A stretch of 64,000 nt of DNA from Mesobacillus persicus (lineage in GTDB: Bacteria; Bacillota; Bacilli; Bacillales; Cytobacillaceae), in the NCBI RefSeq assembly GCF_900109925.1, contig NZ_FOBW01000015.1:1-64000 (forward strand), written 5' to 3'. The notes below the pieces were generated by a model. The model was not told the DNA's origin and did no database searches. It saw nothing but the letters and a program-made list of their open reading frames with translations. Made by a program: the position numbers and the translations under genes. Positions 24,908 through 49,953 of the stretch are shown here, one piece after another; the first letter of the stretch is position 1, and each line of letters begins with the position of its first letter.

Positions 24908-25018
24908 TTGTTTTCCCCCTTGGATATCATTCTCATTTTTTATAAAAATAGTAACCATTGTTCACAACAATCTCTCCGTTCCTCACCACCTTTCAGTTAT
25001 TGAACCTACAAGGGGCGA

Positions 25019-26483: not shown

Positions 26484-26497
26484 ATAATCTTCCTCCT

Positions 26498-28395: not shown

Positions 28396-28457
28396 TGTTC
28401 TCCCCCTGTTCGCATGAATTCACCTGCGGAAATTCCCTTTTGTATGAATTCTATTTT

Positions 28458-30131: not shown

Positions 30132-30156
30132 ACATACATCTCTCCTTTATAAAGAG

Positions 30157-31113: not shown

Positions 31114-31134
31114 TTTGATATCACTCCTTTATTG

Positions 31135-31148
31135 TGAAAGCGCTTTTA
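31135..31148 (-). promoter_or_regulatory. Probable CcpA cre site
   Basis: TGAAAGCGCTTTTA matches the cre consensus TGWAANCGNTNWCA at all but one position. It is 22 bases upstream of the hydrolase ATG, so CcpA bound here would block transcription into the hydrolase, ligase and transporter genes. Confidence 0.6.
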
Positions 31149-31208
31149 TTCCTTATATTTAAAATTTTCAGACATAAGAAGGTAGAATGGTCATACACTA
31201 TTAGTAGC

Positions 31209-31784
31209 CTAGACGAGCTTTTGAGTTTTGACCCCTTTTAAAATAATGTCTGTGAAAATGACTGCGAGCTCCTCTTCTGAAACATCCCCATCGGGGTTAT
31301 ACCAGTAATAACTCCAATTCATAATCCCGAGAATCCCAAATGTCAACATATCAGCTGGAATCGTGGTTTTAAATTCTCCCTCACTGATGCCAGATTCAAT
31401 TAAGCTTTGATAATTTTTGCGAAATAAATTTCGCTTTAATCGGATCTCCTCAACATGTTTGTCACTAAGATGCCTCATCTCCCGAAAGAAGATGCGAGCA
31501 CTCTCTTTATTCGTTCTTATATTGCTTATGACCATATAAATAATTCCATGTAATTTCTCGGTACAATCCTTCTCTTCGTCCCCTAAAATTCTCTCTTGCT
31601 GGTCAATGAGATCATCAATATAGTTTAAATGAATATCTCTCAGCAGTTCTTGCTTGCTTTTAAAATAATAGTAGAAGGTCCCCTTTGTAACATTTAACAC
31701 TTCAACAATGTCTTTAATTGAAGTAGCCGTGAACCCCTTTTGATCAAACAACTGAATACTGGCTTCAACGATTCTATTCTTCAT
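31209..31784 (-). CDS. TetR-family regulator of the catabolic cluster
   Basis: About 191 residues from the ATG at 31784 (MKNRIVEASIQLF), which has GAGGGG upstream; the frame is open to an ATG at 31805. The N-terminal helix-turn-helix reads FTATSIKDIVEVLNVTKGTFYYYFKSKQELL; the C-terminal domain is all helical and includes ARIFFREMRHLSDKHVEEI. It resembles FadR/KstR-like regulators of acyl-CoA metabolism, whose effectors are acyl-CoAs. It follows the thiolase gene, and palindromes at 35137 and 40919 are candidate operators. Confidence 0.87.
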   Translation of the reverse strand: MKNRIVEASIQLFDQKGFTATSIKDIVEVLNVTKGTFYYYFKSKQELLRDIHLNYIDDLIDQQERILGDEEKDCTEKLHGIIYMVISNIRTNKESARIFFREMRHLSDKHVEEIRLKRNLFRKNYQSLIESGISEGEFKTTIPADMLTFGILGIMNWSYYWYNPDGDVSEEELAVIFTDIILKGVKTQKLV

Positions 31785-31879
31785 GGCATTGCGCCCCTCG
31801 TTCATCTTCGAAACAAATTCTGGATGGTAAGGAACGGAGCCGGAAAAACGTCTCCGACCCCCGTCCCTTTCCCTCCATA

Positions 31880-33052
31880 TTACCGCTCATTTTCGATGAT
31901 GGTCGCGATTCCCTGTCCTCCGCCGATACAAGCTGTAATTAACGCATATCGACCACCAGAACGCTTCAACTCATAAATAGCCTTCGTTGTTAAAATTGCA
32001 CCGGTTGCCCCGAGTGGGTGACCATGAGCAATGGCTCCACCATTGACATTTACTTTTTCTAAATTCATGTTCAACTCACGATTACAAGCAAGCACCTGAG
32101 CCGCAAATGCTTCATTAATTTCAATTAGGTCCATATCATCCATCGATAACCCTGAGCGCTCAAGCACTTTCTTTGTTGCCGGAACAGGGCCAATCCCCAT
32201 AATATTCGGATCCACGCCTGAAACCGCATATGCTCGAACCGTTGCTAAAGGAGTAACCCCTAACTCTTCTGCTTTTTCGCGTGACATAACCACAACAGCT
32301 GAAGCGGCATCATTAAGACCTGAAGAACTACCGGCAGTGACCGAACCACCTTTTAAGAACGCTGGTGGAAGCTTTTGCAAAGCCTCAATTGTTGTTTGCG
32401 GTCTTGGATGTTCATCCGTCTTGAACACAATCGGCTCCCCTTTACGAACAGGAATTGTAATCGGAACAATCTGCTCATCAAAGCGGCCTTCCTCCATTGC
32501 TTTTGCCATCCGCTGCTGGCTCGTAAACGCGAACTCATCCTGCTCTTCTCTTGTCACATTATACTTTTCAGCAAGGTTTTCAGCCGTAATTCCCATTGGT
32601 GGATCCCCAATTTCCTTTGGAGACAATTGCGACTTCTTAAAACTTGGTGGCATTGCGCTATATGGCTTTTCCGGACGCTCCATCAAGTATGGAGCGCGGC
32701 TCATGCTTTCTGTACCACCAGCGACATAAATATCTCCGTCACCAGCCATAATTGCTTGAGCGGCTAAATTGATGGCATTGATTCCTGATCCACATTGGCG
32801 ATCAACTGTTAAGCCAGGAATATTGATTGACAGCCCTGTCTGTAAAGCTGTTAATCTAGCAATATTTCCTCCACCGCTCAATACGTTTCCAAAAATAACA
32901 TCATCAATTTGCTCTGGGTCCACGTTTGCACGTTTTACCGCTTCCTTAATGACTTCAGCCCCAAACACATGTGCAGGCACAGAAGCTAATGCACTCCCCT
33001 GTCTCCCGATTGCTGTTCGAACAGCTGAGACAATGACTGCGTCTCTTTTCAT
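31880..33052 (-). CDS. Acetyl-CoA acyltransferase (thiolase)
   Basis: A 390-residue thiolase with all three catalytic signatures: VDRQCGSGINAINLA (Cys near 87), NVNGGAIAHGHPLGATG (His near 348) and ITACIGGGQGIATII (Cys near 378). It cleaves 3-ketoacyl-CoA with CoA to give acetyl-CoA, or propionyl-CoA from a branched chain. It is the last enzyme step of the set ACAD, SDR, thiolase encoded in this order, and lies just before the TetR gene. Confidence 0.92.
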   Translation of the reverse strand: MKRDAVIVSAVRTAIGRQGSALASVPAHVFGAEVIKEAVKRANVDPEQIDDVIFGNVLSGGGNIARLTALQTGLSINIPGLTVDRQCGSGINAINLAAQAIMAGDGDIYVAGGTESMSRAPYLMERPEKPYSAMPPSFKKSQLSPKEIGDPPMGITAENLAEKYNVTREEQDEFAFTSQQRMAKAMEEGRFDEQIVPITIPVRKGEPIVFKTDEHPRPQTTIEALQKLPPAFLKGGSVTAGSSSGLNDAASAVVVMSREKAEELGVTPLATVRAYAVSGVDPNIMGIGPVPATKKVLERSGLSMDDMDLIEINEAFAAQVLACNRELNMNLEKVNVNGGAIAHGHPLGATGAILTTKAIYELKRSGGRYALITACIGGGQGIATIIENER

Positions 33053-33102
33053 ATTAGAATCCCCCTTTGTTCGTCTGAAACTTTATTCATTAAAATGTAT
33101 CA

Positions 33103-33876
33103 TTACATTGCATTTGTCCCGCCATCGACGACAATTGTTTCTCCCGTCATGAAATCAGAGGCTTTAGAAGCTAGTAATAAGGCAATTCCTTTTAGGTCGC
33201 TCTCTGTACCATACTTTCGTAACGGTGTACCTTCTAAAATTCCATTACCGCCTTTTTCTAACAAGCCCTTAGACATTTTCGTTGGAAAAAATCCAGGAGC
33301 AATTGCGTTTACATAAATTCCTTTAGGGCCCCATTTAACAGCCAAGTCCTTTGTGAATGTAATGACAGCTCCCTTACTCGCATTGTAGCCGATCGCATCC
33401 ATAAACTCAGGTCTTGATCCCTTAAACCCGGCAACAGATGCAATGTTGATGATTTTTCCGTATTGCTGTTCAATCATCACTTTGCCGACTGCTTGGGACA
33501 TGAGGAAAGTTCCCGTTACATTTACATTCATTACCTTATTCCAAGCTTCAAGTGGCATTTCTTCCGCAGGCGCACCCCATGAAGCACCACTATTGTTAAC
33601 AAGGATATCGATACGGCCAAACTTTTCGAGTGCCGCCTTTACAACGCTGTTCACATCTTCTTGGCTTGTAACATCACATTTTAGTGCCAATGTCTCTACA
33701 CCAAGCTTCTTCATTTTCTCAGCCACTTCTACACATGCTTCTTCTTTTCTTGAGCAAAGAACTAGATTCGCTCCGGCTTCAGCAAACCCTTCAGCGATTT
33801 GTTCGCCTAGTCCTCTTCCGCCTCCTGTGATAATCGCTGTTTTTCCTTTTAGGTCAAATAATTCTTTTATATGCAC
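33103..33876 (-). CDS. Short-chain dehydrogenase/reductase
   Basis: A 257-residue classical SDR: cofactor loop ITGGGRGLGEQIA, NNSGASWG, the catalytic Ser in INIASVAGF and YNASKGAVITFTKDLA with Tyr and Lys. CSRKEEAC after strand 2 suggests NADP(H) or mixed use. Probably a hydroxyacyl-CoA or sugar-alcohol type oxidoreductase; its place between ACAD and thiolase genes favours 3-hydroxyacyl-CoA oxidation. Only 21 bases separate it from the ACAD gene. Confidence 0.87.
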   Translation of the reverse strand: MHIKELFDLKGKTAIITGGGRGLGEQIAEGFAEAGANLVLCSRKEEACVEVAEKMKKLGVETLALKCDVTSQEDVNSVVKAALEKFGRIDILVNNSGASWGAPAEEMPLEAWNKVMNVNVTGTFLMSQAVGKVMIEQQYGKIINIASVAGFKGSRPEFMDAIGYNASKGAVITFTKDLAVKWGPKGIYVNAIAPGFFPTKMSKGLLEKGGNGILEGTPLRKYGTESDLKGIALLLASKASDFMTGETIVVDGGTNAM

Positions 33877-33897
33877 GGTTGACTTCCTCTCCTCGAA

Positions 33898-35103
33898 TTA
33901 AAGATATTTTTTAAGTTCGTTTCTTGCAATCGCACGACGGTGAACTTCATCCGGACCATCGGCAAGTCTTAATGTACGGATATTCGCCCAGCTTGCAGCA
34001 AGTGGAGTATCCTCACTTACACCAGCAGCTCCAAACGCTTGGATTGCGCGGTCAATAACGTTTAACGCCATATTCGGTGCAACAACCTTGATCATGGCAA
34101 TTTCTGCTTTCGCTTCCTTATTTCCAACCTTATCCATCATATCCGCTGCTTTTAAAGTGAGAAGTCTTGCCTGCTCGATTTCAATTCTTGAATCGGCAAT
34201 CCATTCCTGAATGACCCCTTGTTGAGCCAATTTCTTACCAAATGCTTCACGTTCTTGAACACGCTTACATAACAACTCTAATGCACGCTCAGCCGCACCA
34301 ATCGTTCTCATACAGTGATGGATTCTGCCAGGTCCTAGGCGACCTTGAGCAATCGCAAATCCCTTTCCTTCACCCCAAAGCATATTAGAGGCTGGTACAC
34401 GAACATCTTTATATTCAATTTCTGCATGACCATGTGGTGCATGATCATAACCGAAAACTGGTAGAACTCGTTTAATTGTTACTCCTGGTGTATCAAGAGG
34501 TACTAGAATCATAGATTGTTGTTCATGCTTTGCTGCGTTAGGATCGTTCTTTCCCATAACAATCGCAATCTTACAACGTGGGTCACCTGCACCAGAAGAC
34601 CACCATTTTGTTCCATTGATGACGTATTCGTCACCGTCACGGATGATACTCGCTTCGATATTCGTTGCATCAGAGGAAGCAACATCCGGTTCTGTCATCG
34701 AGAAGCAAGAACGAATTTCCCCACTTAACAATGGCTTCAACCATTTTTCTTTATGCTCTTCTTTACCATAACGTACTAGCACTTCCATATTTCCAGTATC
34801 TGGTGCTGCACAGTTGAATACTTCAGGAGCGATACTAGATCGGCCCATGATTTCACAAAGTGGAGCATATTCAAGATTAGTCAGACCAGCACCCAATTCA
34901 CTTTCAGGCAAGAATAAATTCCATAGTCCATTATCTTTCGCCTTCTGCTTTAATTCTTCCATGATTGGAGGCACTTTACCAAAACGATCTTGCGGATCGA
35001 TTTGTTCATAATACAATTTTTCATTTGGGTACACATAATCTTCCATAAACTTAGTTAGTTTCTGTTGGAGCTCTTTTACCTTATCAGTATAAGTAAAATC
35101 CAT
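33898..35103 (-). CDS. Acyl-CoA dehydrogenase (second copy, operon with SDR and thiolase)
   Basis: The ATG at 35103 ([12 protein letters not shown]) has AAGGAG upstream; the frame extends three codons to a GTG. The 401-residue protein has [18 protein letters not shown] and [13 protein letters not shown] (FAD and substrate loops), [19 protein letters not shown] and a C-terminal [19 protein letters not shown]. It resembles the ACAD10/11-like branch. I do not see the Glu in the usual YEG position; DGPDEVH stands there. It introduces an alpha-beta double bond into an acyl-CoA. Confidence 0.88.
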
Positions 35104-35136
35104 TTCGAACACTCCTTATATATTTTTCTCTTACGC

Positions 35137-35154
35137 GTACTAACTAGTCGGTAT
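35137..35154. promoter_or_regulatory. Palindrome, probable TetR operator before the second ACAD gene
   Basis: GTACTAACTAGTCGGTAT matches the palindrome at 40919-40938 at 14 of 18 positions and lies 34 bases before the ATG. The shared shape is AACNNGTY in the centre, like the core of KstR-type TetR operators. Confidence 0.6.
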
Positions 35155-35300
35155 GTAACTACCAACAATAATAAACAAAATTTTTGCAATATTCAACGGC
35201 GAATTTTGTCGTAAAATAAATATATTTTCCGAACCTTAGAATAACCTACCCCTGCTCAGGGACGATAAATTTATACCTCTATAATAATAGAAGAATTCCA

Positions 35301-35699
35301 TTACCTATTAATTTTATAAACCCCTGAACCTTTCGCGATTAATCTATCATCCTCGTCAAGGATCTCAGATTCCACCGCTGCAATTTTATATCCTTGTTGA
35401 ATAATTTTTGCTGTTGCATAAATCACACCCGAATTGGTACCTGCTAGATAATGGACATTTTGATTAATCGCTGTAACACCTGTTTCGTAAACAGACCTGA
35501 GTGCTACGGTTTGAATGGTATCGAGCATTGCAGCATGTACTCCTCCATGAAGGTTTTGCTGGATGTTTAGGTGTTTTGCCTCGATTGATAGTTTTACTAC
35601 TATATCTTTTCCTTCTCGCTCAATCGTTTCGAATCCTAGATGTTTAATAAAAGAATTTTTTTCAAACCAATCCATTTTTGCATCGTTTACAGCGACCAT
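35301..35699 (-). CDS. PaaI-type hotdog thioesterase
   Basis: A 132-residue hotdog-fold protein. The motif NLHGGVHAAMLDTIQTVAL (near 49-67) is the PaaI active-site helix with HGG, followed by NQNVHYLAGTNSGVIYATA. It should hydrolyse an acyl-CoA, perhaps to rescue CoA from dead-end intermediates. It lies 41 bases from a second, diverged hotdog gene, and the two may form one oligomer. Confidence 0.82.
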   Translation of the reverse strand: MVAVNDAKMDWFEKNSFIKHLGFETIEREGKDIVVKLSIEAKHLNIQQNLHGGVHAAMLDTIQTVALRSVYETGVTAINQNVHYLAGTNSGVIYATAKIIQQGYKIAAVESEILDEDDRLIAKGSGVYKINR

Positions 35700-35740
35700 T
35701 ACACTACACCCCCTTTCAAACTAGCAATATTCGACTTTCA

Positions 35741-36130
35741 TTATTCCTTGATAGGATTCAACTTAAAGGTGCCTGATGCTTTTGCAACCTGGTTTTGATG
35801 CTCATCATAAATGACACCCTCACCCGTGACATATTTACCATCTCGGTTTAGAACCGTTGTTTCTGCTGTGTACTTGTTACTGGGATGAAGATCAAAATAA
35901 TGCAAGTTTAAATTAATGGTCGTCGCAAACGAATTAGTCTGCTTTGAAATTGTTGCCCCCATCATGATATCTAGCATCGTAGCAAATACTCCCGGGTGAA
36001 CGGTTCCATCGTCTTGAAGCAAAAAAGAGTTTATAGGAAGCTCCAAATCAAAGGTCGGTTCTTCAGTCTCTTCACTAATAAATCCAAGATAATCAAAAAA
36101 AGAGGATATAGTACTCTTGGTCTCTTCCAT
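35741..36130 (-). CDS. PaaI-like hotdog protein, diverged copy
   Basis: A 129-residue hotdog protein: HPGVFATMLDIMMGATIS takes the place of the HGG helix, then TINLNLHYFDLHPSNKYTAETTVLNRDGKYVTGEGVIYDE. The HGG is changed to HPG, so thioesterase activity is less sure than for its neighbour. It may be a partner subunit. It follows the ketopantoate-reductase-like gene by 27 bases. Confidence 0.72.
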   Translation of the reverse strand: MEETKSTISSFFDYLGFISEETEEPTFDLELPINSFLLQDDGTVHPGVFATMLDIMMGATISKQTNSFATTINLNLHYFDLHPSNKYTAETTVLNRDGKYVTGEGVIYDEHQNQVAKASGTFKLNPIKE

Positions 36131-36157
36131 AGATCTCCCTCCTCTCCAATGTTATTC

Positions 36158-37084
36158 TTATCTTCCAAACCGTTTTGTTTCCTCTAGTTTGAGCAAAGAG
36201 TAAATTGTTTCTAACACAGGAGTCTCAACACCTAGTTCTTTCCCCTTCTTCACCACGTAGCCACAAATAGACTCTAACTCCATCGGTTTTCCATTGCGTT
36301 TATCTTGTAGCATGGAAGTTTCATGATTTCGCGCAGGATCACTCTGTTCAATTATTTTACTAACAAGTCCATCTTCTAGTGGAATGCCCGCTCCCTTTGC
36401 GACCTCAAGGGCTTCCATACCTATCCGTTCTGCTGTTCTCCTAAGCCCATCATCATCCAAAATAACGCCGACCTTCCCCTCTATCAAGGCCGACAATGGA
36501 TTGAAGGTCACATTCCAAAGGAGTTTTTTCCACTTCACTTTTAAAATATTACTAGAAACATAAGTTTCAATGCCAGCCGACTCTAGAATTTGACTTACTT
36601 CATCCAGTCTGGACATATCCCCCTGAGAATTAAGAGCACCTATGATTAATCTAGTAGGATTCTCCACTTGCTTAACCACTCCGGATTTTTTCATCTGAGC
36701 CTGAATATATGTAGCAGCCGACAAGATTCGCTCTTCGCCAAAATAAGCCGCAAGCACCTCTTCATTATCGACCCCATTCTGTAAAGTGAGAATAGAAGCT
36801 TCCTTCTTTAAAAATGGCACTAGTTGTGCCGCTACTTCTTTCGTGGCCGTCGATTTTACACAAAAAAGGATAAGATCAACATCAACTAGAGAATCATAGC
36901 TGTCCGTAAAAATACCAGACGCTTTAAAATTACCCTCGAAACTTTCAATCGAAATCCCATCATTTCTTTTTAAAGCCTGAAGATTTTCACCTCTTGCTAA
37001 AAATGTAACCTCATGACCAGCCTTGCTCAAGCAAGCTCCAAAATAACCGCCAACAGCCCCGGTTCCAACAATTCCAATGTTCAT
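36158..37084 (-). CDS. Ketopantoate-reductase-family protein (PanE-like)
   Basis: A 308-residue NADP-dependent reductase: GIVGTGAVGGYFGACLSKAGHEV for the cofactor, FCVKSTATKEVAAQL, LTLQNGVDNEEVLAAYFG, KVKWKKLLWNVTFNPLSAL with the conserved catalytic Lys, and SMLQDKRNGKPMELESICGYVV. All signature blocks are kept. The context is acid degradation, not pantothenate synthesis, so it may act on a branched 2-keto or 3-keto intermediate; that is inference. GGAGG precedes the ATG. Confidence 0.8.
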   Translation of the reverse strand: MNIGIVGTGAVGGYFGACLSKAGHEVTFLARGENLQALKRNDGISIESFEGNFKASGIFTDSYDSLVDVDLILFCVKSTATKEVAAQLVPFLKKEASILTLQNGVDNEEVLAAYFGEERILSAATYIQAQMKKSGVVKQVENPTRLIIGALNSQGDMSRLDEVSQILESAGIETYVSSNILKVKWKKLLWNVTFNPLSALIEGKVGVILDDDGLRRTAERIGMEALEVAKGAGIPLEDGLVSKIIEQSDPARNHETSMLQDKRNGKPMELESICGYVVKKGKELGVETPVLETIYSLLKLEETKRFGR

Positions 37085-37132
37085 GCTATTATCCTCCTAA
37101 AACTGGGGAGTTGTGAAAGATATACTTATGGA

Positions 37133-37166
37133 AAAGGCGAAGCTGCGCCCAGCGCCCTTCGCCTTT
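37133..37166 (-). terminator. Terminator at the end of the first catabolic operon
   Basis: AAAGGCGAAG and CTTCGCCTTT with a 14-base GC-rich loop, placed just after the aldolase stop. It separates the ACAD/SDR/MaoC/aldolase operon from the PanE-like gene. Confidence 0.7.
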
Positions 37167-37170
37167 ATTC

Positions 37171-37938
37171 CTAGTCCAACAAATCGGGTTGTTCCCTCAC
37201 GATTCTGTTCCATAATGGCTGGAACTGGAACCAACCCGCATCCTTCGTTCCTACCTGACGATAGGTCGTCTGAGCGATTTCCGGCTCAATTATAACCGGT
37301 TTGCCAGCTGCCTCCGCCATGAGCTGTGCTTGACACGATCTTTCCATTGTAATGAACCACCAAGCAGCCTCATCCACAGATTGGCCAACGGTTAACAGCC
37401 CGTGGTTTCGCAGAATGCACGCTTTCCTGTCACCGAGAGAGACACCGATTCTACGCCCCTCATCGGTTTCATGTACCACGCCTGTATAGTCATCAAACAA
37501 GGAATGGTCGTCATAAAAGGCACAGGCATCCTGTGTAATCGGATCAAGCAGCCGCCCTAAAGACGACCAAGTTTTCCCATAAACCGAGTGGGCATGGGCT
37601 GCCGCAATCACATCAGGTCTGGCCGCATGTATTTGTGAATGGATTGCAAAAGCTGCGCGGTTGACAGGAAGATTACCTTCCACGACAACTCCATCATGGT
37701 TGCATAAAATTAAGTCAGAAGCTTTGATAAGGCTAAAATGAACCCCAAAAGGATTGACCCAAAAATGATTTTTCCGTTCCGGGTCCCTCGCGGTAATGTG
37801 ACCAGCGACACCTTCATCAAAACCAAACTTGGAAAAAAGACGGAACGCTGCAGCCAACCTTTCTTTTAAATGCTGCCGCTCCTCTTCAACCGATTGAAAA
37901 ACAGGTGGCTTAAAGCTTACTTCCATTTTTGTAACCAT
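37171..37938 (-). CDS. Class II aldolase/adducin family protein
   Basis: The ATG at 37938 (MVTKMEVSFK) has GGGAGG upstream. The 255-residue protein keeps the zinc ligands and phosphate loop of the family: GHITARDPERKNHFWVNPFG, AAHAHSVYGKTWSSLGR with HAH, and NHGLLTVGQSVDEAAWWFI. Family members split or isomerise phosphosugars or aldols, and some act in aromatic or branched-acid pathways. Its place at the end of the hydratase operon suggests a retro-aldol or decarboxylation step, not proven. Confidence 0.83.
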   Translation of the reverse strand: MVTKMEVSFKPPVFQSVEEERQHLKERLAAAFRLFSKFGFDEGVAGHITARDPERKNHFWVNPFGVHFSLIKASDLILCNHDGVVVEGNLPVNRAAFAIHSQIHAARPDVIAAAHAHSVYGKTWSSLGRLLDPITQDACAFYDDHSLFDDYTGVVHETDEGRRIGVSLGDRKACILRNHGLLTVGQSVDEAAWWFITMERSCQAQLMAEAAGKPVIIEPEIAQTTYRQVGTKDAGWFQFQPLWNRIVREQPDLLD

Positions 37939-37975
37939 GATTTCCTCCCATTCTACCATTCCAGCAATCTATGGC

Positions 37976-38377
37976 TTACGCCACTTTATAGACAACCTGC
38001 CCTTTTAGAACTGGTTTTTCGTCTTGATTGACAGCAAGTACATCGAACTTTAACACATCTCCGTCGCGTTCCTTCAGCTCGGCCTTTAATGTTACAACAT
38101 CGTTTAAAAAGACCATGCCTCTGAACCGGATAGCATACTCCTGAATGAAGCCTTCCTCATAGAAAGGAGTGAATAGCTTCGCTAGATTTCCCATCGTCCA
38201 CATACCGTGAGCAATTATACCTGGTAATCCTGCCTTCTTCGCTTCTTCATCAATCGTATGAATGGGATTGAAATCTCCGGAAGCACCAGCATATTTGATC
38301 AAATCAATTCGAGACACAGGATCAAGCTGAATATCATTCAGTGTATCCCCAACATACAACTCTGCAATCTTCGTCAT
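37976..38377 (-). CDS. MaoC-like (R)-hydratase subunit, catalytic half
   Basis: A 133-residue single hotdog with the hydratase 2 motif: YAGASGDFNPIHTIDEEAKKAG, where Asp and His five residues later are catalytic, then GIIAHGMWTMGNLAKLF and AIRFRGMVFLND. It adds water to a trans-2-enoyl-CoA to give (3R)-hydroxyacyl-CoA. It overlaps the gene for the partner half by 4 bases, as in HadA/HadB-type heterodimers. Confidence 0.85.
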   Translation of the reverse strand: MTKIAELYVGDTLNDIQLDPVSRIDLIKYAGASGDFNPIHTIDEEAKKAGLPGIIAHGMWTMGNLAKLFTPFYEEGFIQEYAIRFRGMVFLNDVVTLKAELKERDGDVLKFDVLAVNQDEKPVLKGQVVYKVA

Positions 38378-38820
38378 ACCTGCTGCACCTTCCTATACGC
38401 TTCAGACAGAATAACAATCGATTTTGAAGTAAAAACCGCATTACCATCCTTGTCCTCGCCATTATTTTCTAACACAATAAAGCCCATATTGCCCATCGCT
38501 CCGGCCTTCTCATAATAATCGGAGACCTTCGCATAGCAATAGACATCCTCGCCAACTAGTAGTGGACGCTCGTATTGATAGATTTGCTCCCCATGAATAA
38601 GCCCCTTGTTTGGAAGGTTCAATCCCTCAATCACACCATAATCAAACACTCGTGCGAAGGTTGGTGGAGCAATATTTTGACCAAAACGCGACTGCTTGCC
38701 TACTTCCTCATCAAGGTAAATCGGATGCATGTCCCCAACAGCCTCGGCAAATTTCTTCACCGCACCACGTTCGACGGTATTTTTGACTTTGGTTGAGGCT
38801 TTGCCAATCATTTCCTTCAT
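38374..38820 (-). CDS. MaoC N-terminal-type hydratase subunit (FAS1-like dehydratase domain)
   Basis: A 148-residue hotdog of the HadA/FAS1-like type: VERGAVKKFAEAVGDMHPIYLDEE, PPTFARVFDYGVIEGLNLP and GLIHGEQIYQYERPLLVGEDV. In the place of the catalytic His it has Tyr (GDMHPIY), so it is likely the substrate-binding, non-catalytic half that pairs with the MaoC protein encoded next. In bacteria such halves form heterodimers acting on long or bulky enoyl thioesters. Confidence 0.82.
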   Translation of the reverse strand: MKEMIGKASTKVKNTVERGAVKKFAEAVGDMHPIYLDEEVGKQSRFGQNIAPPTFARVFDYGVIEGLNLPNKGLIHGEQIYQYERPLLVGEDVYCYAKVSDYYEKAGAMGNMGFIVLENNGEDKDGNAVFTSKSIVILSEAYRKVQQV

Positions 38821-38845
38821 CTACAAGTCACCTCACATTTTATAA

Positions 38846-39610
38846 TTAGTTTTTCGGTCCACCTGCAACGTAAATCACTTGTCCGTTAACAAATCCGGAC
38901 TTTTCATCCGCAAAGAACGCAACAGCATTTGCAATATCTTCTGGCTTTCCGCTTCTAGCAACCGGTATCGCTGCAACACTTGCATTAATAAGATCCTCAA
39001 ACGAAATACCAATCCTGCGTGCTGTTTCTTTTGTCATATCTGTTTCAATGAAGCCTGGAGCAATTGAGTTAGCAGTAATGCCATATTTTCCAAGCTCAAT
39101 CGCAAGTGTTTTTGTAAAGCCTTGTAACCCAGCCTTTGCTGTCGAATAGTTCGCTTGCCCTCTGTTTCCAAGTGCGGAAGTGGAAGAAATATTAATGATA
39201 CGACCATATTTTTGGTCAACCATGAATTTTTGAACCGCTTTCGTTGCAAGGAAAGATCCTTTTAAATGCACGTTCATAACTGTATCCCAGTCATTTTCCG
39301 TCATTTTGAACAACATGTTGTCACGAATAACCCCTGCATTATTGACAAGGATATCAACGGAACCAAGGTTTTCAACGATTTCCTTTACAGCTGCTTCTAC
39401 CTGATCAGCGTCTGTAACACTAGCAACCTTTGAAAATACTTCAACGCCTTTTTCTTTAAGTTCAGCTGTTGTCTGTGCTAAAGCCGCTTCATCCAAGTCA
39501 ATGAATGCCACTTTTGCTCCCTCTGCAGCAAAAAGCTCAACAATTCCCTTTCCAATCCCTCTACTTCCACCTGTTACAAACGCAACTTTTCCTTCAAATC
39601 TTCCAGCCAT
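38846..39610 (-). CDS. SDR, FabG-like 3-hydroxyacyl dehydrogenase
   Basis: The ATG at 39610 (MAGRFEGKVAFVTGG) is chosen for its spacing to GAGGAGG; an ATG two codons upstream is too close. The 254-residue classical SDR has FVTGGSRGIGKGIV, NNAGVIRDNMLFKM, INISSTSALG and YSTAKAGLQGFTKTLA, and is FabG-like throughout (GFIETDMTKE). FIDLDEAAL after strand 2, with Asp, suggests NAD preference, which suits oxidation of (3R)-hydroxyacyl-CoA made by the adjacent MaoC pair. Confidence 0.88.
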   Translation of the reverse strand: MAGRFEGKVAFVTGGSRGIGKGIVELFAAEGAKVAFIDLDEAALAQTTAELKEKGVEVFSKVASVTDADQVEAAVKEIVENLGSVDILVNNAGVIRDNMLFKMTENDWDTVMNVHLKGSFLATKAVQKFMVDQKYGRIINISSTSALGNRGQANYSTAKAGLQGFTKTLAIELGKYGITANSIAPGFIETDMTKETARRIGISFEDLINASVAAIPVARSGKPEDIANAVAFFADEKSGFVNGQVIYVAGGPKN

Positions 39611-39649
39611 ACTCATTTCCTCCTCTATCAAGTAAACTTGCACTATTTT

Positions 39650-39663
39650 AGATAGCGCTTACA
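39650..39663 (-). promoter_or_regulatory. Possible CcpA cre site before the FabG-like SDR gene
   Basis: Minus strand TGTAAGCGCTATCT fits TGWAANCGNTNWCA except for the last base. It lies 40 bases before the SDR start, between two genes of one operon, where a bound CcpA could act as a roadblock. Confidence 0.5.
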
Positions 39664-39670
39664 AACTATA

Positions 39671-40849
39671 TTATATGAATTGCCCTAATTTTACATGTCC
39701 TTTAAGCAAGTTTCTGGAAATAATGACTCTCTGAATCTCATCTGTACCATCATAGATTCTCCAAAGTCTAGCTTCACGGTACCAACGCTCAAGTGGCAAT
39801 TCTCTTGTATAACCCATTCCACCATGAATTTGCAGGGCGCGGTCAATGACTCTGTTCCCCATGTTTGCGCCATAAAGCTTTGCCATGGATGCAAGATGAC
39901 GATTGTCTTCGCCTTGGTCCAATGTATAAGCTGCATTTAAAACTAACCAACGAGCAGCATCAATTTCAACGGCTGAATCAGCAATCATAATTTGAATCGC
40001 TTGTCTGTCAGCAATCGGCTTACCGAACGTTTCACGCTCTTTTGCGTAATCAATCGACATTTGCATGACTCGTTCTGCAGCTCCAACTGCGCGGGCACCA
40101 ACGATCCATCTTGCAAAGCCAATCCATTCTAGTCCTAAGTTATACCCTTTATTCAACTCACCAAGGATATTTTCTTCAGGTACACGTACATTGTCAAATA
40201 CCAATCCAGCTGGACCCCATTCTCCCATGGTATGTATATACTCGGATTTCCAGCCCATATCGCGGTCAACGATAAAGCATGTAACACCTTCGCGTCCTCT
40301 AGTGGACTTATGCAACTCTTTATCAGTGATTGCAATCGCCATTACAAAGTCCGCTTCGTTTCCGCCTGTAATGAATGTCTTTTCTCCATTTAGGACCCAT
40401 TCATTTCCATCTTTTACTGCAGTCATTTTAATATTTTGTGTATCAGATCCAGCACCCGGCTCAGTCATCGCAAAGCAAGATTTCTTTTCGCCGTTAATTG
40501 TTGGGATCAAATACTTCTTCTTTTGATCTTCGTTCGCATAGTAAAGGATGTTATCGGCAGATCCACCAAATTGGAAAGGTACAAACGTTTTAGATACTTC
40601 CATGTAAACAAGTGCCAACATCATTTGACCAAGATCGGCTCCACCGTACTCTTCAGGTGTATTAATTCCCCAGAAGCCTGCTTCTTTTGCTTTTAGCTGA
40701 AGCTCCTTCAATTTACCAGGTGGTAAGCTTGGCTTGCCTTCCCTCTCATTTCTTAATACATCATTTTCAAGAGGCATTAATTCCTTTTCAACAAATTTGC
40801 GGATTGTTTGTTGAACCATTTTTTGCTCATCGGTAAGGCGTAATTCCAT
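39671..40849 (-). CDS. Acyl-CoA dehydrogenase (first copy, operon with SDR and MaoC pair)
   Basis: A 392-residue acyl-CoA dehydrogenase: CFAMTEPGAGSDTQNIKM and KTFITGGNEADFVMA (FAD), RAVGAAERVMQMSIDYAKERETFGKPIA and the C-terminal LWRIYDGTDEIQRVIISRNLL. The Glu of the usual short-chain type (YEGT) is replaced: it reads YDGT, so the catalytic base is either this Asp or elsewhere. It is the first gene of the operon. A perfect palindrome lies 70 bases upstream. Confidence 0.9.
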   Translation of the reverse strand: MELRLTDEQKMVQQTIRKFVEKELMPLENDVLRNEREGKPSLPPGKLKELQLKAKEAGFWGINTPEEYGGADLGQMMLALVYMEVSKTFVPFQFGGSADNILYYANEDQKKKYLIPTINGEKKSCFAMTEPGAGSDTQNIKMTAVKDGNEWVLNGEKTFITGGNEADFVMAIAITDKELHKSTRGREGVTCFIVDRDMGWKSEYIHTMGEWGPAGLVFDNVRVPEENILGELNKGYNLGLEWIGFARWIVGARAVGAAERVMQMSIDYAKERETFGKPIADRQAIQIMIADSAVEIDAARWLVLNAAYTLDQGEDNRHLASMAKLYGANMGNRVIDRALQIHGGMGYTRELPLERWYREARLWRIYDGTDEIQRVIISRNLLKGHVKLGQFI

Positions 40850-43878: not shown

Positions 43879-43906
43879 AAAAGAGGTGCATAAAGACACC
43901 TCTTTT
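43879..43906 (-). terminator. Terminator after the alcohol/aldehyde dehydrogenase pair
   Basis: AAAAGAGGTG and CACCTCTTTT with an 8-base loop, followed by TTTTTATT on the minus strand. Confidence 0.8.
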
Positions 43907-43925: not shown

Positions 43926-45143
43926 TTAATTTTTTACTATTGAAGGAACCACCCGTTGACCGACTGCCTCAATCAGCTCTTTCGGCATTGGGAAGTTAAC
44001 TGCTGCTGGATCCGAGCTTACAGCCGGAATCGCCCTTGCTAAATCTTCTTCTGTCAAATTATACTGAGCAAAATCTTGAGGCAATCCCGTCTTCTGTTGA
44101 AGAAGCCTAATTTTCTCCACCGTTTTCGCGAGAACCGTTTGTTGATCATCTGTAGATGAAACATCGACACGAAGAGCTTCCGCTAACTCCCTAGCTTTTG
44201 GCAGATAAAGGTCTGGAATAGACTCCATCACAATCGGAAGGAACACCGCGTTTGCTAAACCATGTGGAATCCTGAATAAAGCACCATAGGCATGAGCAAA
44301 GTTGTGTACAGGAATCGCATTTAACGCAAAACTAAACGCAGTAATCCCCATTAAGCTTGCCTGGAGCATTTCCATTCTAGCATCCACATTTGAACCATTT
44401 GCGACAACCTCAGGCAAATTCTTTTCAATCAAACGGATTGCATGAAGCGCATGGGCGTCTGTTAGTGCAGTTGCCGTTGGGGAAGCAAATGCCTCAATCG
44501 CATGTGTTAGAGCATCAAAGCCAGTGAATGCTGTGATGGCCGGCGGTAATCCGACAGTCAAATCAGGATCAAGAACCGCCATGTCAGCGGATAAAAATGG
44601 ATTGATGATATTCGTCTTCATTTGAATTTCTTCATTAAAGATAACCGCAATTGGCGAAACCTCAGAGCCTGTTCCTGCCGTTGTTGGGATTGCAATATGA
44701 GGAATTGGAATATGATTTGCCTTCGGGAACTGCTCCATGACAAAACCGCCTGGAATAGCTTCCTTAATATCTGCTAGACCGTGATGTAAGGCATATTTTA
44801 CTCCTTTTACCGTATCAAGCACACTGCCGCCCCCGACAGCTAATAAGCCATCTGCCCCAATTTCGCGTGCATAGCGAGCAGCATCGTTCACACTTTTACT
44901 CTCGGCATCCTGAGCAATATCGAGGTAGATCCCAGCTAGCTCTGGTCCGGACCCCTGAGGAATCAATGAGAAGATTTGTGCGACCTTCTCAACTACTCCA
45001 GCCTGCTCAAGTCCACGATCACTTAATAATAGAACCCGCTTCGCTCCAAGCCCTTTAAATAGACTAGGCACTAACGCCCTTGTATTTGACCCACTATATA
45101 TTGCTGTACGTAGCATAAACTCCGACATTGTCCGTGTTTGCAT
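43926..45143 (-). CDS. Iron-containing alcohol dehydrogenase
   Basis: A 405-residue group III dehydrogenase: GADGLLAVGGGSVLDTVKG for NAD binding, IPTTAGTGSEVSPIAVI, and the metal site with GFDALTHAIEAFASP and HNFAHAYGALFRIPHGLANAV holding the His residues. It interconverts an alcohol and an aldehyde. It is encoded 50 bases after an aldehyde dehydrogenase gene, so the pair would carry an alcohol to the acid, the substrate of the neighbouring acyl-CoA ligase. Confidence 0.9.
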   Translation of the reverse strand: MQTRTMSEFMLRTAIYSGSNTRALVPSLFKGLGAKRVLLLSDRGLEQAGVVEKVAQIFSLIPQGSGPELAGIYLDIAQDAESKSVNDAARYAREIGADGLLAVGGGSVLDTVKGVKYALHHGLADIKEAIPGGFVMEQFPKANHIPIPHIAIPTTAGTGSEVSPIAVIFNEEIQMKTNIINPFLSADMAVLDPDLTVGLPPAITAFTGFDALTHAIEAFASPTATALTDAHALHAIRLIEKNLPEVVANGSNVDARMEMLQASLMGITAFSFALNAIPVHNFAHAYGALFRIPHGLANAVFLPIVMESIPDLYLPKARELAEALRVDVSSTDDQQTVLAKTVEKIRLLQQKTGLPQDFAQYNLTEEDLARAIPAVSSDPAAVNFPMPKELIEAVGQRVVPSIVKN

Positions 45144-45193: not shown

Positions 45194-46714
45194 TTACTTC
45201 GAAAATAATAATCCATACCAGTTACGACGGTGAATCTCTGGAACCATCGAGGTGTGTACATGCTTCACTTGTGTATACGCATCTAAGGAGTGCTTCCCCA
45301 TTTCCCGACCGATTCCACTCTGTTTATAGCCTCCGAACGGAGCATCATTTCTCAACATATGCCAGTCATTGATCCAAACGACACCTGCTTGGAGCTTCCT
45401 GGCCACGTCATAAGCTTTATTCACATCACTCGTCCACACACCAGCGGCAAGACCGTAAATTGTGTCATTCGCCATTTTAATCGCTTCATCCACATCAGAA
45501 TATCGAATCACTGATAAAACTGGACCAAAGATTTCTTCTCTTGCGATTTTCATATCATTGGTTACATTCGTAAAAATTGTTGGCTCAATAAAGTTCCCTT
45601 CTTCACAGCCAGGCACTGTAACTTCACGGCCTCCACAGACCAATGTCGCCCCTTCTTGTTTGCCTGCTTCTATATAAGAAAGAATTGACTCCTTCTGCTT
45701 TTTCGAGATAACCGGACCAATGTCGGTTGCTGGATCAAGTGGATTCCCCATTTTAAGCTTACTCGCAAGCTCTACAAGTCCTTCGACAATGACGTCATGA
45801 AGATGGTCTGGTACAAACAACCTTGTTCCTGACTCACAAAGTTGTCCTGAATGAAGGAATACACCAAATAAGCTACCTGGGAGTGCAATCGATAAATCCG
45901 CATCCTCTAAAATGATATTTGGCGACTTCCCACCAAGTTCAAGGGTCGTATTTTTAATGGTACCTGCCGACAGCTCCATCACTCTCCGACCAACCTCAGT
46001 CGAACCAGTGAAGGCCACTTTATCAACCTTCGGATGACGAATCAGCGCCTCACCAACATCTCCGCCTGAGCCTGTCACGACATTGATGACACCTGGAGGC
46101 ACAACTTCGGAAATAATTTCAGCAAGCTTTAAAGTGGATAACGGTGTGTAACTAGCTGGTTTAACGACTACCGTATTGCCCATTGCTAGAGCAGGAGCAA
46201 TCTTCCACGTTGCAATTACCATTGGTAGGTTCCATGGGGTGATTGCCGCACAAACTCCAATCGGCTCACGCCAAATAAAATTATGGGCTGGTCCAGGAAA
46301 TGGTGGCGATGGCAATGTCTCAGAAAACTCATATTCGACAACAAATTTAGCTAGTGTCTGAAATAAATCAACCATCTGTAAAATATCATTTCCACCTAAT
46401 CTACGAACGGTTCCTCCAGAACTGATGGACTCAAGATAGGCAAGTTCTTCGGCATGCTCAGCAATTTTATGAGAAATTGCATAGAGAACGTTCGCCCGTT
46501 CCTTCGGGCCCATATTTCGCCATTCCGTGTTGTCAAAGGCCTCTCGTGCTGCTTGGACAGCCTTGTCGATATCTTCAGACGTTCCTTTCGCTACTTTCGC
46601 GACGAGCTGTCCTGTTGCCGGATTGACAACATCAAAGGTCTCTTGGCTGCTACTTGGCTGCCACTGACCATTAATAAACAAGGGAAATGTTTGTACTTCA
46701 GTTTGAACTGTCAT
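45194..46714 (-). CDS. NAD(P)-dependent aldehyde dehydrogenase
   Basis: A 506-residue enzyme of the main ALDH family: [34 protein letters not shown], the general base Glu in [14 protein letters not shown] and the nucleophile Cys in [15 protein letters not shown], then [15 protein letters not shown]. All catalytic residues are kept. It oxidises an aldehyde to the acid. First gene of the pair with the alcohol dehydrogenase. Confidence 0.92.
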
Positions 46715-46920
46715 AAATATCCTCCTCTAATCTTTCATTTATAAAAGCTCTTCTTTTCCTCAAAACTGTGTTTTCTTCGAAATTAAATGGAACTGGATAA
46801 CGATGTTTTTATTAAAATGCTTTAGTAGTTTTATGAGAAAAGAGCTTGAATACTTAAATTAATTGCACCATATAGCTATCCCTGCATTAAGATCGGCTTT
46901 TGGATTTGAACAATAGCCTG

Positions 46921-47814
46921 TTATAAAACACCCATCTCTGTTTCTGTGACCCGGTAAATATCCTCGATCTTCTTCCCACGTGCTCGTGATAGAATATCCA
47001 TTCTTACGGATAGCTGTTTCATCGTAAAATTCATCGTGTCCTCAAGCAGATGGCCGAACTCACTTACATCGCGGCCAGCAAAGCCTTCCTGATTGATTTT
47101 GATGGCCAATGGGGCCAATTGTTGCATCTTTGCTTCTACAACTTCATACAGATGCGGATGCTCACAAATCAAGCGCTGAAGCAAAAAGGTTCCATAGGCA
47201 ATATGACGGGATTCGTCACGCTTCAAATATTCAATCCCTTTAAGCAGGCCCGGCATTAGCCCTAATTCCTCGAGTGATTGATAGAAGGAGTAGTAGCCCG
47301 TTTCCGCCATTACACCTTCGACAAACATGTTATAAACGGTTGCAGCCTCAGCAATCGCTTCGGGTGATTGGTCAGTTTCAAGCCTGCTCATCGCTTCAGG
47401 AAGGATCTCGTAGAAAATCTTCTGGTAGGTTTCGGAATGAAAATGGGCTAAATCTCCTTTTTCCCCGATGGTGTTAAGCACAATTCGGAAAAACTCTGTA
47501 TGCTTGGCTTCTTCGAATAAAAAAGTCGTCAAGAACATTTCTTCTTCGAGTCTCCCCTCCTTAGCAATGGTCATAATCAACGGAAGTAAATCAAGTGTGA
47601 CCGCTTCCTCTCCAGCCTGAAACTGAGAAATTAACCGCAAAATATCTTGCTGTTGCTCACTCGCAAGTGTTTTCCAATCCCTTGCATCCTGGGTGAGGTC
47701 GATATCACTTGGATTCCAGACACCGTACTTTTTTGCTTTTTGAAACAAGCGGAAAGGGAAGGAGTCCTCAATCAACCCCCTCTTACTCGTCGTTAAAATC
47801 GTTCTTTTCTCCAT
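46921..47814 (-). CDS. R2-like ligand-binding oxidase (Mn/Fe, R2lox)
   Basis: The ATG at 47814 (MEKRTILTTSKRGL) has GGGAG upstream. The 297-residue ferritin-like protein has the metal ligands Glu 69 (GEEAV), Glu 102 and His 105 (EEAKH), Glu 166 (FVEG), Glu 201 and His 204 (DESRH). Val 72 and Tyr 161 match the pair that forms the unusual Val-Tyr crosslink in the Geobacillus and mycobacterial R2lox proteins. This sets it apart from true ribonucleotide reductase R2. Known members hold a fatty acid at the metals. It sits between ligase and aldehyde dehydrogenase genes. Confidence 0.88.
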   Translation of the reverse strand: MEKRTILTTSKRGLIEDSFPFRLFQKAKKYGVWNPSDIDLTQDARDWKTLASEQQQDILRLISQFQAGEEAVTLDLLPLIMTIAKEGRLEEEMFLTTFLFEEAKHTEFFRIVLNTIGEKGDLAHFHSETYQKIFYEILPEAMSRLETDQSPEAIAEAATVYNMFVEGVMAETGYYSFYQSLEELGLMPGLLKGIEYLKRDESRHIAYGTFLLQRLICEHPHLYEVVEAKMQQLAPLAIKINQEGFAGRDVSEFGHLLEDTMNFTMKQLSVRMDILSRARGKKIEDIYRVTETEMGVL

Positions 47815-47903: not shown

Positions 47904-49436
47904 TCACGCTTGGTTATTCGGTGAAATCATTTCAACTGCTGTTTTTCTTAAGTGGGTTTTAAGAATCTTTCCGACCCCATTACGCGGTAGTGCTTCTAAA
48001 AAAATGATTTGTCTAGGTGTTTTATTTTTAGCGAGATGATCTTGACAAAAGCGAACGAGTTCCTCTGATGTCACATGAGTTCCTTCTTTTTTTACTACAC
48101 AGGCAACCATCTCTTCTCCCATCCTTTCGTCAGGAATTCCAACGACGGATGCTTCGGATACCGCTACATGGCGATTAAGGATTTCCTCGACATCGCGCGG
48201 ATAAAGATTAAAGCCACCTCGAATAATTAAGTCCTTCTTACGGTCAACGATATATAAATAGCCGTCATCATCAAGCCTCGCCATATCTCCCGTATGTAGC
48301 CATGAGCTCTTCAAAACCTTCTCGGTCTCAACCAGATTATTAAAATAACCTGGGGTTACGTTATCGCCACGGACAAGCAGTTCGCCCACTTCACCTACAG
48401 GAAGTTCACTACCGGCATCATCAACAATTTTAATTTCCACCCCTGGTATTGGAATTCCAACTGATCCTGGTTTAATTTCGATGTTTTTCCGATGAGCTGT
48501 GACAATTGGAGCTGCCTCAGAAAGTCCATAGCCTTCATAGATTTCAGCATTAAACCTCGCTTGAAAAGCATTTAACAACGCTACAGGCAATGGAGCTGAG
48601 CCTGAACCCACCCACTCTAGGCTGCTTGTATCATACTTATCGCCATCAGGATACGACAGCATGGCATGAATCATCGCTGGAACCGCTGAAAAGGATTTCA
48701 CTTTATGTTTTTCAATTGCTGTAAACACGTCAGCTAGGTTAAAGCTTGGGAAGATGACAATCGCCCCACCTAACATCATGCAAATATTCGAAATGGTTAA
48801 ACCGTATACATGGGCTAGTGGAAGAATACCAAGGGTCGTTCCCCGTTCCGTTTCATTATGTTTCGCTGAGTTCTCAGCATTTGAAAATAAATTCTTATGA
48901 GTTAATAAGACTCCTTTAGGACTCCCTGTTGTCCCGGATGTATAAAGAATAACCGCGGTATCGTCTTCGGTCGTAGTAAGTGAGGTTCCTAACGGCTCGT
49001 TTTCCGCCAGAATTTGGTAAAAATTACGAACTTCATCTGAACTTGGCAGGTCAACAGCAATAATAGTTGGTTGGTCCTCGAGATCTTTCATGGCCGCTCG
49101 TACCTTTTCAATAACAAGTGAAGAGGTTATTATTGCTTTAACGCCACTGTTCGCGACAATATAATGAATTTCCTTTGGGTGCAGTGTAAACATGACCGGA
49201 ACAATTACTGCACCTGCTCGATTGATTCCTTGGTAGGAAAAAATCACTTCTGGGCAGTTCGGCATGATAACCATCACCCTGTCACCTTTGTTGATCCCTT
49301 GCTGTTTTAACCCTGATGCAAATCTGTCTGCCATTCTCTTCGTTTCAACATTGGTAAATTGCTTATTTTGAAAATACAACATTGGGTACTCGTCAAAGTT
49401 CTCAACATTTGAATCAAGCAATTGTTCTAGCTTCAT
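47904..49436 (-). CDS. AMP-forming acyl-CoA synthetase (second copy)
   Basis: A 510-residue ANL-superfamily ligase: VILYTSGTTGSPKGVLLTH (ATP), YEGYGLSEAAPIVTAH, WLHTGDMARLDDDGYLYIVDRKKDLI and the catalytic Lys in NGVGKILKTHLRK. It is shorter than the first ligase at 28458 and from a different branch. A perfect cre lies 51 bases upstream, so it should be shut by glucose. It starts the leftward series that includes R2lox, ALDH and ADH. Confidence 0.9.
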   Translation of the reverse strand: MKLEQLLDSNVENFDEYPMLYFQNKQFTNVETKRMADRFASGLKQQGINKGDRVMVIMPNCPEVIFSYQGINRAGAVIVPVMFTLHPKEIHYIVANSGVKAIITSSLVIEKVRAAMKDLEDQPTIIAVDLPSSDEVRNFYQILAENEPLGTSLTTTEDDTAVILYTSGTTGSPKGVLLTHKNLFSNAENSAKHNETERGTTLGILPLAHVYGLTISNICMMLGGAIVIFPSFNLADVFTAIEKHKVKSFSAVPAMIHAMLSYPDGDKYDTSSLEWVGSGSAPLPVALLNAFQARFNAEIYEGYGLSEAAPIVTAHRKNIEIKPGSVGIPIPGVEIKIVDDAGSELPVGEVGELLVRGDNVTPGYFNNLVETEKVLKSSWLHTGDMARLDDDGYLYIVDRKKDLIIRGGFNLYPRDVEEILNRHVAVSEASVVGIPDERMGEEMVACVVKKEGTHVTSEELVRFCQDHLAKNKTPRQIIFLEALPRNGVGKILKTHLRKTAVEMISPNNQA

Positions 49437-49486
49437 TGGATCCTCTCCTTTATGAAAATGACCAAAGTACTAACATCCGGATTAAT

Positions 49487-49500
49487 TGAAAGCGTTTTCA
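49487..49500. promoter_or_regulatory. Perfect CcpA cre site before the acyl-CoA ligase gene
   Basis: TGAAAGCGTTTTCA fits the consensus TGWAANCGNTNWCA at every position and is itself nearly palindromic. It lies 51 bases before the ligase ATG, over the expected promoter. Confidence 0.8.
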
Positions 49501-49626
49501 AGTGATTGTACTATTATGGCGCCTTCTGACTCCTCCACCAAATATATTACAAAATTAGAATATTATGAATATTCTCTGTGTTTTTTTAAAACCCTTTTAT
49601 TTTTTAAAATTATTTATTAAAACGAA

Positions 49627-49823
49627 GGCTCTGTTAAACAATTATGTTGATTTCCGCTCCAGGCGCTCATCGAACAGCGGGGCGTGCGGTGAGCCCGCAG
49701 GACACTGAATCACATCCTCGAATATGCCCACGCACGAGAAAATGTGCACTTCATTTTCGAGGAGTCAAGCGCCTTCCGCTCCTATCAACCTGCTCAAAAT
49801 CAACATTGACCTTTAACAGAGCC
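49627..49823. mobile_element. MITE-like element with GGCTCTGTTAAA inverted ends
   Basis: The ends are GGCTCTGTTAAA (49627-49638) and TTTAACAGAGCC (49812-49823); inside each end TGTTGATTT also matches, so the terminal repeats cover about 27 bases with 6 differing in the middle. The interior of about 140 bases is GC-rich and codes for nothing convincing. No transposase is present. No clear target duplication could be read. I remember very similar sequence between genes in many Bacillus genomes. Confidence 0.65.
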
Positions 49824-49953
49824 AAGACCAAAGATAAGTAATTGGAAAAATCCTAACACCAAAATGAAATTTTACGCCATAAAAAAGAAGCCTAATCAAT
49901 TAACCAGGCCTCTTCACATTGAACATGTCTATAAAATTATCCTTATATTCCCT

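Follow-up and report, generated by a model that had tools for sequence, protein, structure and literature searches.

Structures of R2lox proteins date from 2009 (3ee4), yet the family has remained without an accepted reaction. The locus considered here lies in a window of 64,000 nucleotides from Mesobacillus persicus (the whole stretch analysed, positions 1 to 64,000 of contig NZ_FOBW01000015.1), and it raises the question of what an R2lox does among genes for an acyl-CoA ligase, an aldehyde dehydrogenase (ALDH) and an alcohol dehydrogenase (ADH). A preliminary description of this DNA had read the gene order as a path from hydroxylation through alcohol, aldehyde and acid to acyl-CoA, and had called the reaction of R2lox unknown. 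That last statement, also found in the older literature (PMC4118035, in the portion available), now needs qualification: the reaction is better described as contested than as open, given that an alkane-degradation assay has been published for an R2lox of another clade (PMC10867098, 2024, likewise in the portion available).

The gene at 46921..47814 (minus strand) encodes 297 residues from the ATG at 47814; an upstream TTG would give a frame of 306. Its product matches the NCBIfam model NF006202, 'R2-like ligand-binding oxidase', with 342.9 bits, above the curated cut-off of 315, and the closest solved R2lox chains retrieved with phmmer are those of Geobacillus kaustophilus (4hr0), Sulfolobus acidocaldarius (7qbk/6qrz), Saccharopolyspora (7qbp) and Mycobacterium tuberculosis (3ee4). 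The M. tuberculosis protein (Rv0233; 3ee4, 4ac8) shares family and fold with that of the window (TM 0.91-0.93 by query length) at 36-38% identity. When the AlphaFold2 model (mean pLDDT 92.3) was compared with the PDB by Foldseek, ranks 1-34 were all R2lox chains (E 1.5e-15 or better), and the first R2 subunit of a ribonucleotide reductase (RNR) came at rank 35 (E 8.4e-07). Alignment with Geobacillus-type R2lox yields the predicted metal ligands E69, E102, H105, E166, E201 and H204 and the residues for the putative crosslink, V72 and Y161, all of which the preliminary description had read correctly. The full ligand set with this Val and Tyr is kept in 153 of 155 aligned R2lox-like proteins, the exceptions being L041 (E167V) and L162. 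Six R2lox-specific residues given in yeast numbering in PMC3824934 (as far as its accessible text goes), including the cavity Ala and Tyr, correspond in our own mapping to G68, P78, K104, A170, Y174 and R203, which are invariant across 30 relatives. The naming of the gene as an R2lox is thus borne out by the profile score, the family-specific residues and the Foldseek ranking. That it encodes instead the small subunit of a class I RNR is almost certainly wrong, and we rejected this reading: the NrdB/NrdF profiles do give weak matches, the best of them 61 bits, but this is far under the cut-off of 237, the residues and fold are those of R2lox, and contig 37 of the same genome encodes a separate R2-family protein.

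Some members at the edges of the family deserve mention. In L041 (10001-10891) a Val replaces the metal ligand Glu167, which could be a natural variant or a sequencing error. The R2-like protein of a Streptomyces plasmid (L162:6854-7843) has Gly and Phe in place of the Val and Tyr and is by its residues not an R2lox; its gene sits among others resembling a biosynthetic cluster. Haloarchaeal R2-like proteins (L160, L161) retain the R2lox residues, and their genes adjoin a quinone oxidoreductase and genes of the fatty-acid-synthesis type (ACP or KS, MAT, FabG, holo-ACP synthase). Four haloarchaeal proteins and the Streptomyces one form long branches and were left out of the argument.

The neighbours named in the preliminary description are present as it had them, all on the minus strand: an AMP-forming acyl-CoA ligase, identified by profile search (47904..49436), R2lox, ALDH (45194..46714) and an iron-containing ADH (Fe-ADH; 43926..45143), in this order, followed by a terminator-like hairpin with 11 pairs and a T-rich tail (43879..43906, minus strand, 3' of the ADH). 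The nearest NCBIfam model for the ALDH is betaine-aldehyde dehydrogenase, whose cut-off it does not reach, and the Fe-ADH falls under every equivalog cut-off. The gaps are 89 bases between ligase and R2lox, 206 between R2lox and ALDH, and 50 between ALDH and ADH. The second of these, which is 68 bases in the closest relative (L003), is mostly taken up by a dispersed repeat (46784..46915) with 16 other matches in the genome; another such repeat, with 63 other matches, lies upstream of the unit (49610-49830). About 50 bases before the ligase start stands the palindrome TTGAAAACGCTTTCAA (49486..49501) and, just upstream of it, a weak sigma-A-like promoter match (49541..49569, minus strand, 9/12). 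Across the window the scans gave 7 terminator-like sites against 5.8 in shuffles, a count as such not above chance, and 16 promoter-like sites against 12.9 expected. Taken together, the four genes form an apparent unit that would be read as a single transcript. The genes for an acyl-CoA dehydrogenase, an SDR and two HadA/HadB-like (MaoC-type) dehydratases (37976..40849, minus strand) are only a possible part of the pathway, since they lie 3 kb from the ADH here; in several relatives with Mesobacillus-type loci they come directly after it. They belong to a larger run (23699-40849) with a Liv-type ABC transporter and a thiolase (by eye), a second CoA ligase, and lipase-like, SDR, MaoC-type and acyl-CoA dehydrogenase genes; at several Neobacillus loci the Liv-type transporter cluster directly adjoins the R2lox unit.

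The preliminary description had proposed checking whether R2lox stays next to ALDH, ADH and ligase genes in other genomes. It does so in several R2lox lineages. Among the best 80 of 179 loci (window-like, with R2lox 54-90% identical), with ADH and ALDH counted within 5 kb on the same strand and the ligase within 3 kb, an orthologue-like ADH is found in 58 (two of them short remnants, L027 and L030), ALDH in 51, both in 49, the ligase in 44 and the exact order ligase, R2lox, ALDH, ADH in 34, while 20 of the 80 have neither ADH nor ALDH within these limits. At L147 (7994-9134) a broken Fe-ADH directly after R2lox is a decayed version of the R2lox-ADH pair. A more even sample of 299 genomes of the order (R2lox at E <= 1e-25, ADH <= 1e-110, ALDH <= 1e-190) contains R2lox in 51, ADH in 48 and ALDH in 47; R2lox and ADH occur together in 38 genomes, R2lox only in 13, ADH only in 10 and neither in 238. 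Counted by genus the figures are 14, 8, 3 and 92 (Fisher p 4e-10), in tests that ignore kinship and on counts that are not phylogenetically independent. The 51 genomes hold 61 R2lox places, at 42 of which any ALDH and any Fe- or Zn-type ADH both lie within 5 kb by tblastn; an ADH only is found at 4 (G278, G035, G235 and, broken, G185), neither partner within 5 kb at 13, and 2 places fall at contig ends (G057, G248). For comparison, the stretches of the window's own genome that have both an ALDH and an Fe-ADH no more than about 6 kb away make up some 1.2% of it, or about 1.6% when Zn-ADHs are added; set against 42 of 61 and the co-occurrence counts, chance clustering was rejected. Of 398 genomes sampled from the phylum, 7 contain R2lox (E <= 1e-20), of which 4 are outside the order and belong to one GC-rich genus, and in all four of these SCP2-like, Zn-ADH and ALDH genes surround it.

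The path from hydroxylation to acyl-CoA is not a new idea, having been printed, with an alkane-degradation assay, for an R2lox of another clade. In the accessible part of PMC10867098, GkR2loxI (GK2771) of G. kaustophilus is proposed as an alkane hydroxylase because its gene clusters with those for an ALDH (GK2772), an ADH (GK2774) and a ligase (GK2782), because the strain degrades alkanes, and because crude E. coli lysate with GkR2loxI loses alkanes; the same text refers to an R2lox gene of Halorientalis that is induced by hexadecane, states that ADO activity was not found, and points to genes for an ADH, an ALDH and a ligase around GkR2loxII of pHTA426, which we confirmed. The activity published there is the disappearance of alkanes from a crude lysate, and exchanging two residues (E202A/H205A) lowered it only slightly. 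Our search of the open-access literature returned PMC10867098 as the sole paper combining R2lox, ADH and ALDH, and no report of purified R2lox turning over an external substrate. What is new here is the test of how general the R2lox/ADH/ALDH neighbourhood is.

In the R2lox tree (69 rows, with M. tuberculosis Rv0233 left out) the window protein falls in A+B' (98/84), and the GkR2loxI-like proteins form group B (99/98), which is joined with actinobacterial R2lox (95/76, a branch not starred) and includes L132, a match to chain 4hr0 from end to end. Both ADH and ALDH accompany R2lox at 28 of 40 places in the window-like group A, 3 of 3 in B', 6 of 13 in B and 5 of 5 in the GkR2loxII-like group C. 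The ADH step is filled by unrelated enzymes, as it is of the Fe type in groups A, B' and C and of the Zn type in group B, in the genus outside the order and in the actinobacteria. Those group B loci that have partners carry the Zn-ADH with an SCP2-like protein, and the actinobacterial ones an NDMA-dependent Zn-ADH with SCP2; between one locus of each kind the Zn-ADHs are 45% identical and the SCP2-like proteins 34%. That the function next to R2lox is shared across lineages while the ADH is not is our main argument that R2lox would make an alcohol. The R2lox-linked ALDHs fall into four supported clades with no supported order among them, and in the Fe-ADH tree, a weak one, 3 of the 15 inner branches are starred. 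Simple orthology of the window cluster with the published GK2771 cluster was rejected, as both the clade and the ADH type differ. The GK2771 cluster of strain HTA426 resembles that of the window in that R2lox, with the same ligands and crosslink pair, stands beside ALDH and ADH, the larger surrounding cluster also containing a CoA ligase and genes of beta-oxidation. However, GkR2loxI belongs to the clade nearest the actinobacterial proteins, loci like its own (L132, L134, L143) have the Zn-type ADH with SCP2-like and DUF6230 (P21-like) genes, and the window unit has an Fe-ADH, of a different superfamily, and begins with the ligase.

Group C shares with the window the combination of R2lox, ALDH, Fe-ADH and, mostly, an AMP-forming ligase, both in GkR2loxII (GKP26, pHTA426) and in the loci L083, L136-L138, L224 and L225. 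Its R2lox is only about 31% identical to that of the window, and for its ALDH and ADH the better matches in the window's genome are paralogues outside the window's own pair, which suggests that the association in group C arose separately. A UbiD-type decarboxylase gene follows R2lox in L136 (by profile) and in L137 and L138 (by eye), and another lies near R2lox on pHTA426. These, with xanthine-dehydrogenase-type genes on the same plasmid, make an aromatic substrate possible for group C.

A hydroxylase of this kind would need electrons, and candidate carriers stand beside R2lox in some actinobacteria. A tblastn search of a plasmid collection yielded 8 actinobacterial records, which reduce to four distinct loci, whose R2lox shares 60% or more identity with the Rhodococcus opacus protein. 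In all six Rhodococcus plasmid records, which amount to three distinct loci and constitute the redox evidence, genes for a ferredoxin and an NAD(P)/FAD oxidoreductase adjoin R2lox; the order in R. opacus B4 is NDMA-ADH, R2lox, oxidoreductase, ferredoxin, ALDH, SCP2, ligase. In R. opacus the ferredoxin scores above the cut-off of the FdxA_Actino model, and the oxidoreductase most resembles thioredoxin reductase (TrxR); the CxxC pair is absent from the three distinct Rhodococcus oxidoreductases, and TrxR-type ferredoxin reductases are not known to have it. The two Mycobacterium records have R2lox, an SCP2-like protein, ligase and NDMA-ADH, and no ferredoxin pair within the stretch shown. Searches for homologues of this Rhodococcus pair gave nothing in the window or in the group A loci covered, apart from a weak reductase match (23% identity) 7 kb from R2lox in L072. 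In one group B locus of the Bacillota (L149:6264-10261) a ferredoxin, a TrxR-type reductase, a P450, an SCP2-like protein and R2lox stand in a row, where the electron carriers may serve the P450. The R2lox-ferredoxin operon is described neither in PMC10867098 nor in PMC10401708, as far as the accessible parts of these two papers go. In strain 9 (L163:15557-18942) the R. opacus operon is followed by genes for two ABC permeases and for proteins of the MCE family, a hint that the substrate there could be a lipid or sterol taken up from outside.

The ALDH-ADH pair also occurs without R2lox, in 10 of the 299 genomes of the order. In all eight of these that belong to genera g27 and g34 an alkyl sulfatase gene is part of the cluster, identified in L116 by PF14863/PF14864 and by solved alkyl sulfatases and in the others by similarity to L116; in L118 it lies directly before ALDH, that is, in the place of R2lox. 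Alkyl sulfatases release fatty alcohols from alkyl sulfates, and the shared ALDH-ADH-ligase set would thus most likely handle fatty alcohols. In the remaining two genomes (G146, G273) a LuxR-type regulator gene precedes ALDH-ADH. The clusters of alkyl sulfatase, ALDH, Fe-ADH and ligase (L116-L119 and L196-L199, with the ligase apart in L117) look like an operon with which a Bacillales group breaks down alkyl sulfates (SDS); in L116-L119 they are accompanied by a divergent gene, LysR-type by eye.

These comparisons establish what the genes are, how they are ordered, and that their arrangement is conserved, with R2lox and the ADH and ALDH genes occurring together. From them we consider it probable, if well short of assured, that R2lox makes an alcohol by hydroxylating some hydrophobic compound, and that the ADH-ALDH-ligase module consumes this alcohol. 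R2lox, as an O2-dependent two-electron oxidase with an Mn/Fe or Fe/Fe centre, would hydroxylate a hydrophobic and probably long-chain compound; in the window's case the Fe-type ADH would oxidize the alcohol to the aldehyde, the ALDH would convert this to the acid, and the AMP-forming ligase would form the acyl-CoA for beta-oxidation-type enzymes. The two electrons could, in some actinobacteria, pass from NAD(P)H through the TrxR-like reductase to the ferredoxin encoded beside R2lox; the lineage of the window would depend for them on a general ferredoxin or flavodoxin system. The order of steps in the preliminary description is in agreement with the conserved neighbourhood; the substrate class is left wide, since the neighbours fit an alkane, a fatty acid, an isoprenoid or another lipid alike. 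A more elaborate version, to which we give less than even credence, makes R2lox the terminal oxygenase of a multi-component Mn/Fe monooxygenase common to Bacillota and Actinomycetota, with electrons flowing from NAD(P)H by way of a TrxR-like ferredoxin reductase and an FdxA ferredoxin to R2lox, SCP2 delivering the lipid, and ADH, ALDH and ligase consuming the alcohol. The window would then be a variant with an Fe-ADH, without SCP2 and with borrowed carriers, and the ALDH-ADH-ligase set would be exchangeable between R2lox and alkyl sulfatase. Counted against R2lox as the source of the alcohol are the crude-lysate nature of the published assay and the small effect of the mutations in it, the fact that no turnover by purified R2lox came up in the literature searched, the 13 of 61 places without partners, the ALDH-ADH pairs without R2lox, and the window cluster's lack of Rhodococcus-type redox genes.

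Several other explanations could account for parts of the same evidence. The substrate of R2lox could be a fatty acid or acyl chain, with an omega- or in-chain hydroxy acid converted by ADH and ALDH to a dicarboxylic acid. This is unlikely on the whole, though several observations speak for it: according to the accessible part of PMC10867098, R2lox co-purifies with a C16-C18 (hydroxy) fatty acid; genes for SCP2-like lipid-binding proteins and, in R. opacus strain 9, MCE proteins adjoin R2lox; and some loci pair it with a ligase and acyl-CoA dehydrogenases without ADH or ALDH (L130, L140-L142) or with ligase, SDR and MaoC-like genes (L129). However, that bound acid was not turned over, its functional groups being unchanged and far from the metals in the same account, and the position of the ligase before R2lox does not discriminate.

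A further alternative would be that R2lox is a desaturase, or performs some other two-electron oxidation, with ADH and ALDH acting elsewhere in the same catabolic pathway. Modelling of how the crosslink forms has led to a published proposal of desaturase activity (PMC4118035, in part), and the loci with acyl-CoA dehydrogenases but without ADH would fit equally, yet the repeated association with unrelated ADH and ALDH types would be left unexplained, and we regard this reading as quite improbable. Hardly better placed is the notion that ALDH-ADH is a self-standing module for fatty alcohols or aldehydes, catabolic or detoxifying, and that R2lox merely travels with it or is a stress protein under the same control. 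It draws on the 8 genomes in which ALDH-ADH goes with an alkyl sulfatase, the 5 in which it goes with a LuxR-type regulator and no adjacent R2lox, and the R2lox genes that stand without either partner; but the co-occurrence and adjacency of R2lox are far above chance, and the association is seen again in lineages with other ADHs.

A candidate for common regulation, the lack of which the preliminary description had named as an argument against its reading, is found in relatives, though not in the window's genome. A LuxR-type protein with a GerE domain is present in 28 of the 299 genomes of the order, its gene adjoining R2lox in 22 and, in 5 more, an ALDH-ADH pair that has no R2lox next to it; in 1 it is unlinked. 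The palindrome TGWAAGNNCTTWCA, with at most one mismatch, occurs in 27 of 38 distinct regions upstream of such regulators, many of them from close kin, against 16 of 3000 random 200-base stretches, and 25 of the 27 copies lie 63-66 bases from the regulator start. Regulator and palindrome stand before R2lox or ALDH-ADH in L050, L114, L122, L124, L150, L152 and others, and most group B loci have a 500-residue relative of the regulator a few kb from R2lox. The LuxR-type protein was not found in the window's genome at E 1e-35, nor in its family among the genomes listed. The palindrome TTGAAAACGCTTTCAA before the window's ligase, in turn, is a perfect match to TGWAANCGNTTWCA, which we take to be the CcpA cre consensus. 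Cre-like sites with at most one mismatch number 3 in the window against 0.38 expected, and occur within about 350 bases of the lead gene in 17 of 78 loci against about 1.2 expected, where some of the 17 lack the central CG and are the palindrome of the LuxR loci, the patterns TGWAANCGNTTWCA and TGWAAGNNCTTWCA overlapping. The palindrome of the window's family, which has the central CG, looks from its letters like a candidate cre site, the alternative being an operator for the LuxR-type regulator. Induction of the unit by the substrate of R2lox would be in keeping with the reading we favour.

Among known systems, the dinuclear Mn/Fe monooxygenases of the AibH2 type offer a parallel, as they perform the Mn/Fe C-H hydroxylation proposed for R2lox, and tight linkage to an electron carrier is treated as their genomic signature (PMC10401708, in its accessible part). 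They are of another protein family (PF04909), however, and have dedicated Rieske and flavoprotein genes rather than an FdxA-type ferredoxin. With a recurrent neighbourhood, candidate electron-donor genes, and a regulator with a candidate operator, the function of R2lox becomes an ordinary question of biochemistry and genetics. Should the proposed reading prove true, R2lox would stand apart from AlkB, LadA and CYP153 as a widespread lipid hydroxylase of the Mn/Fe type.
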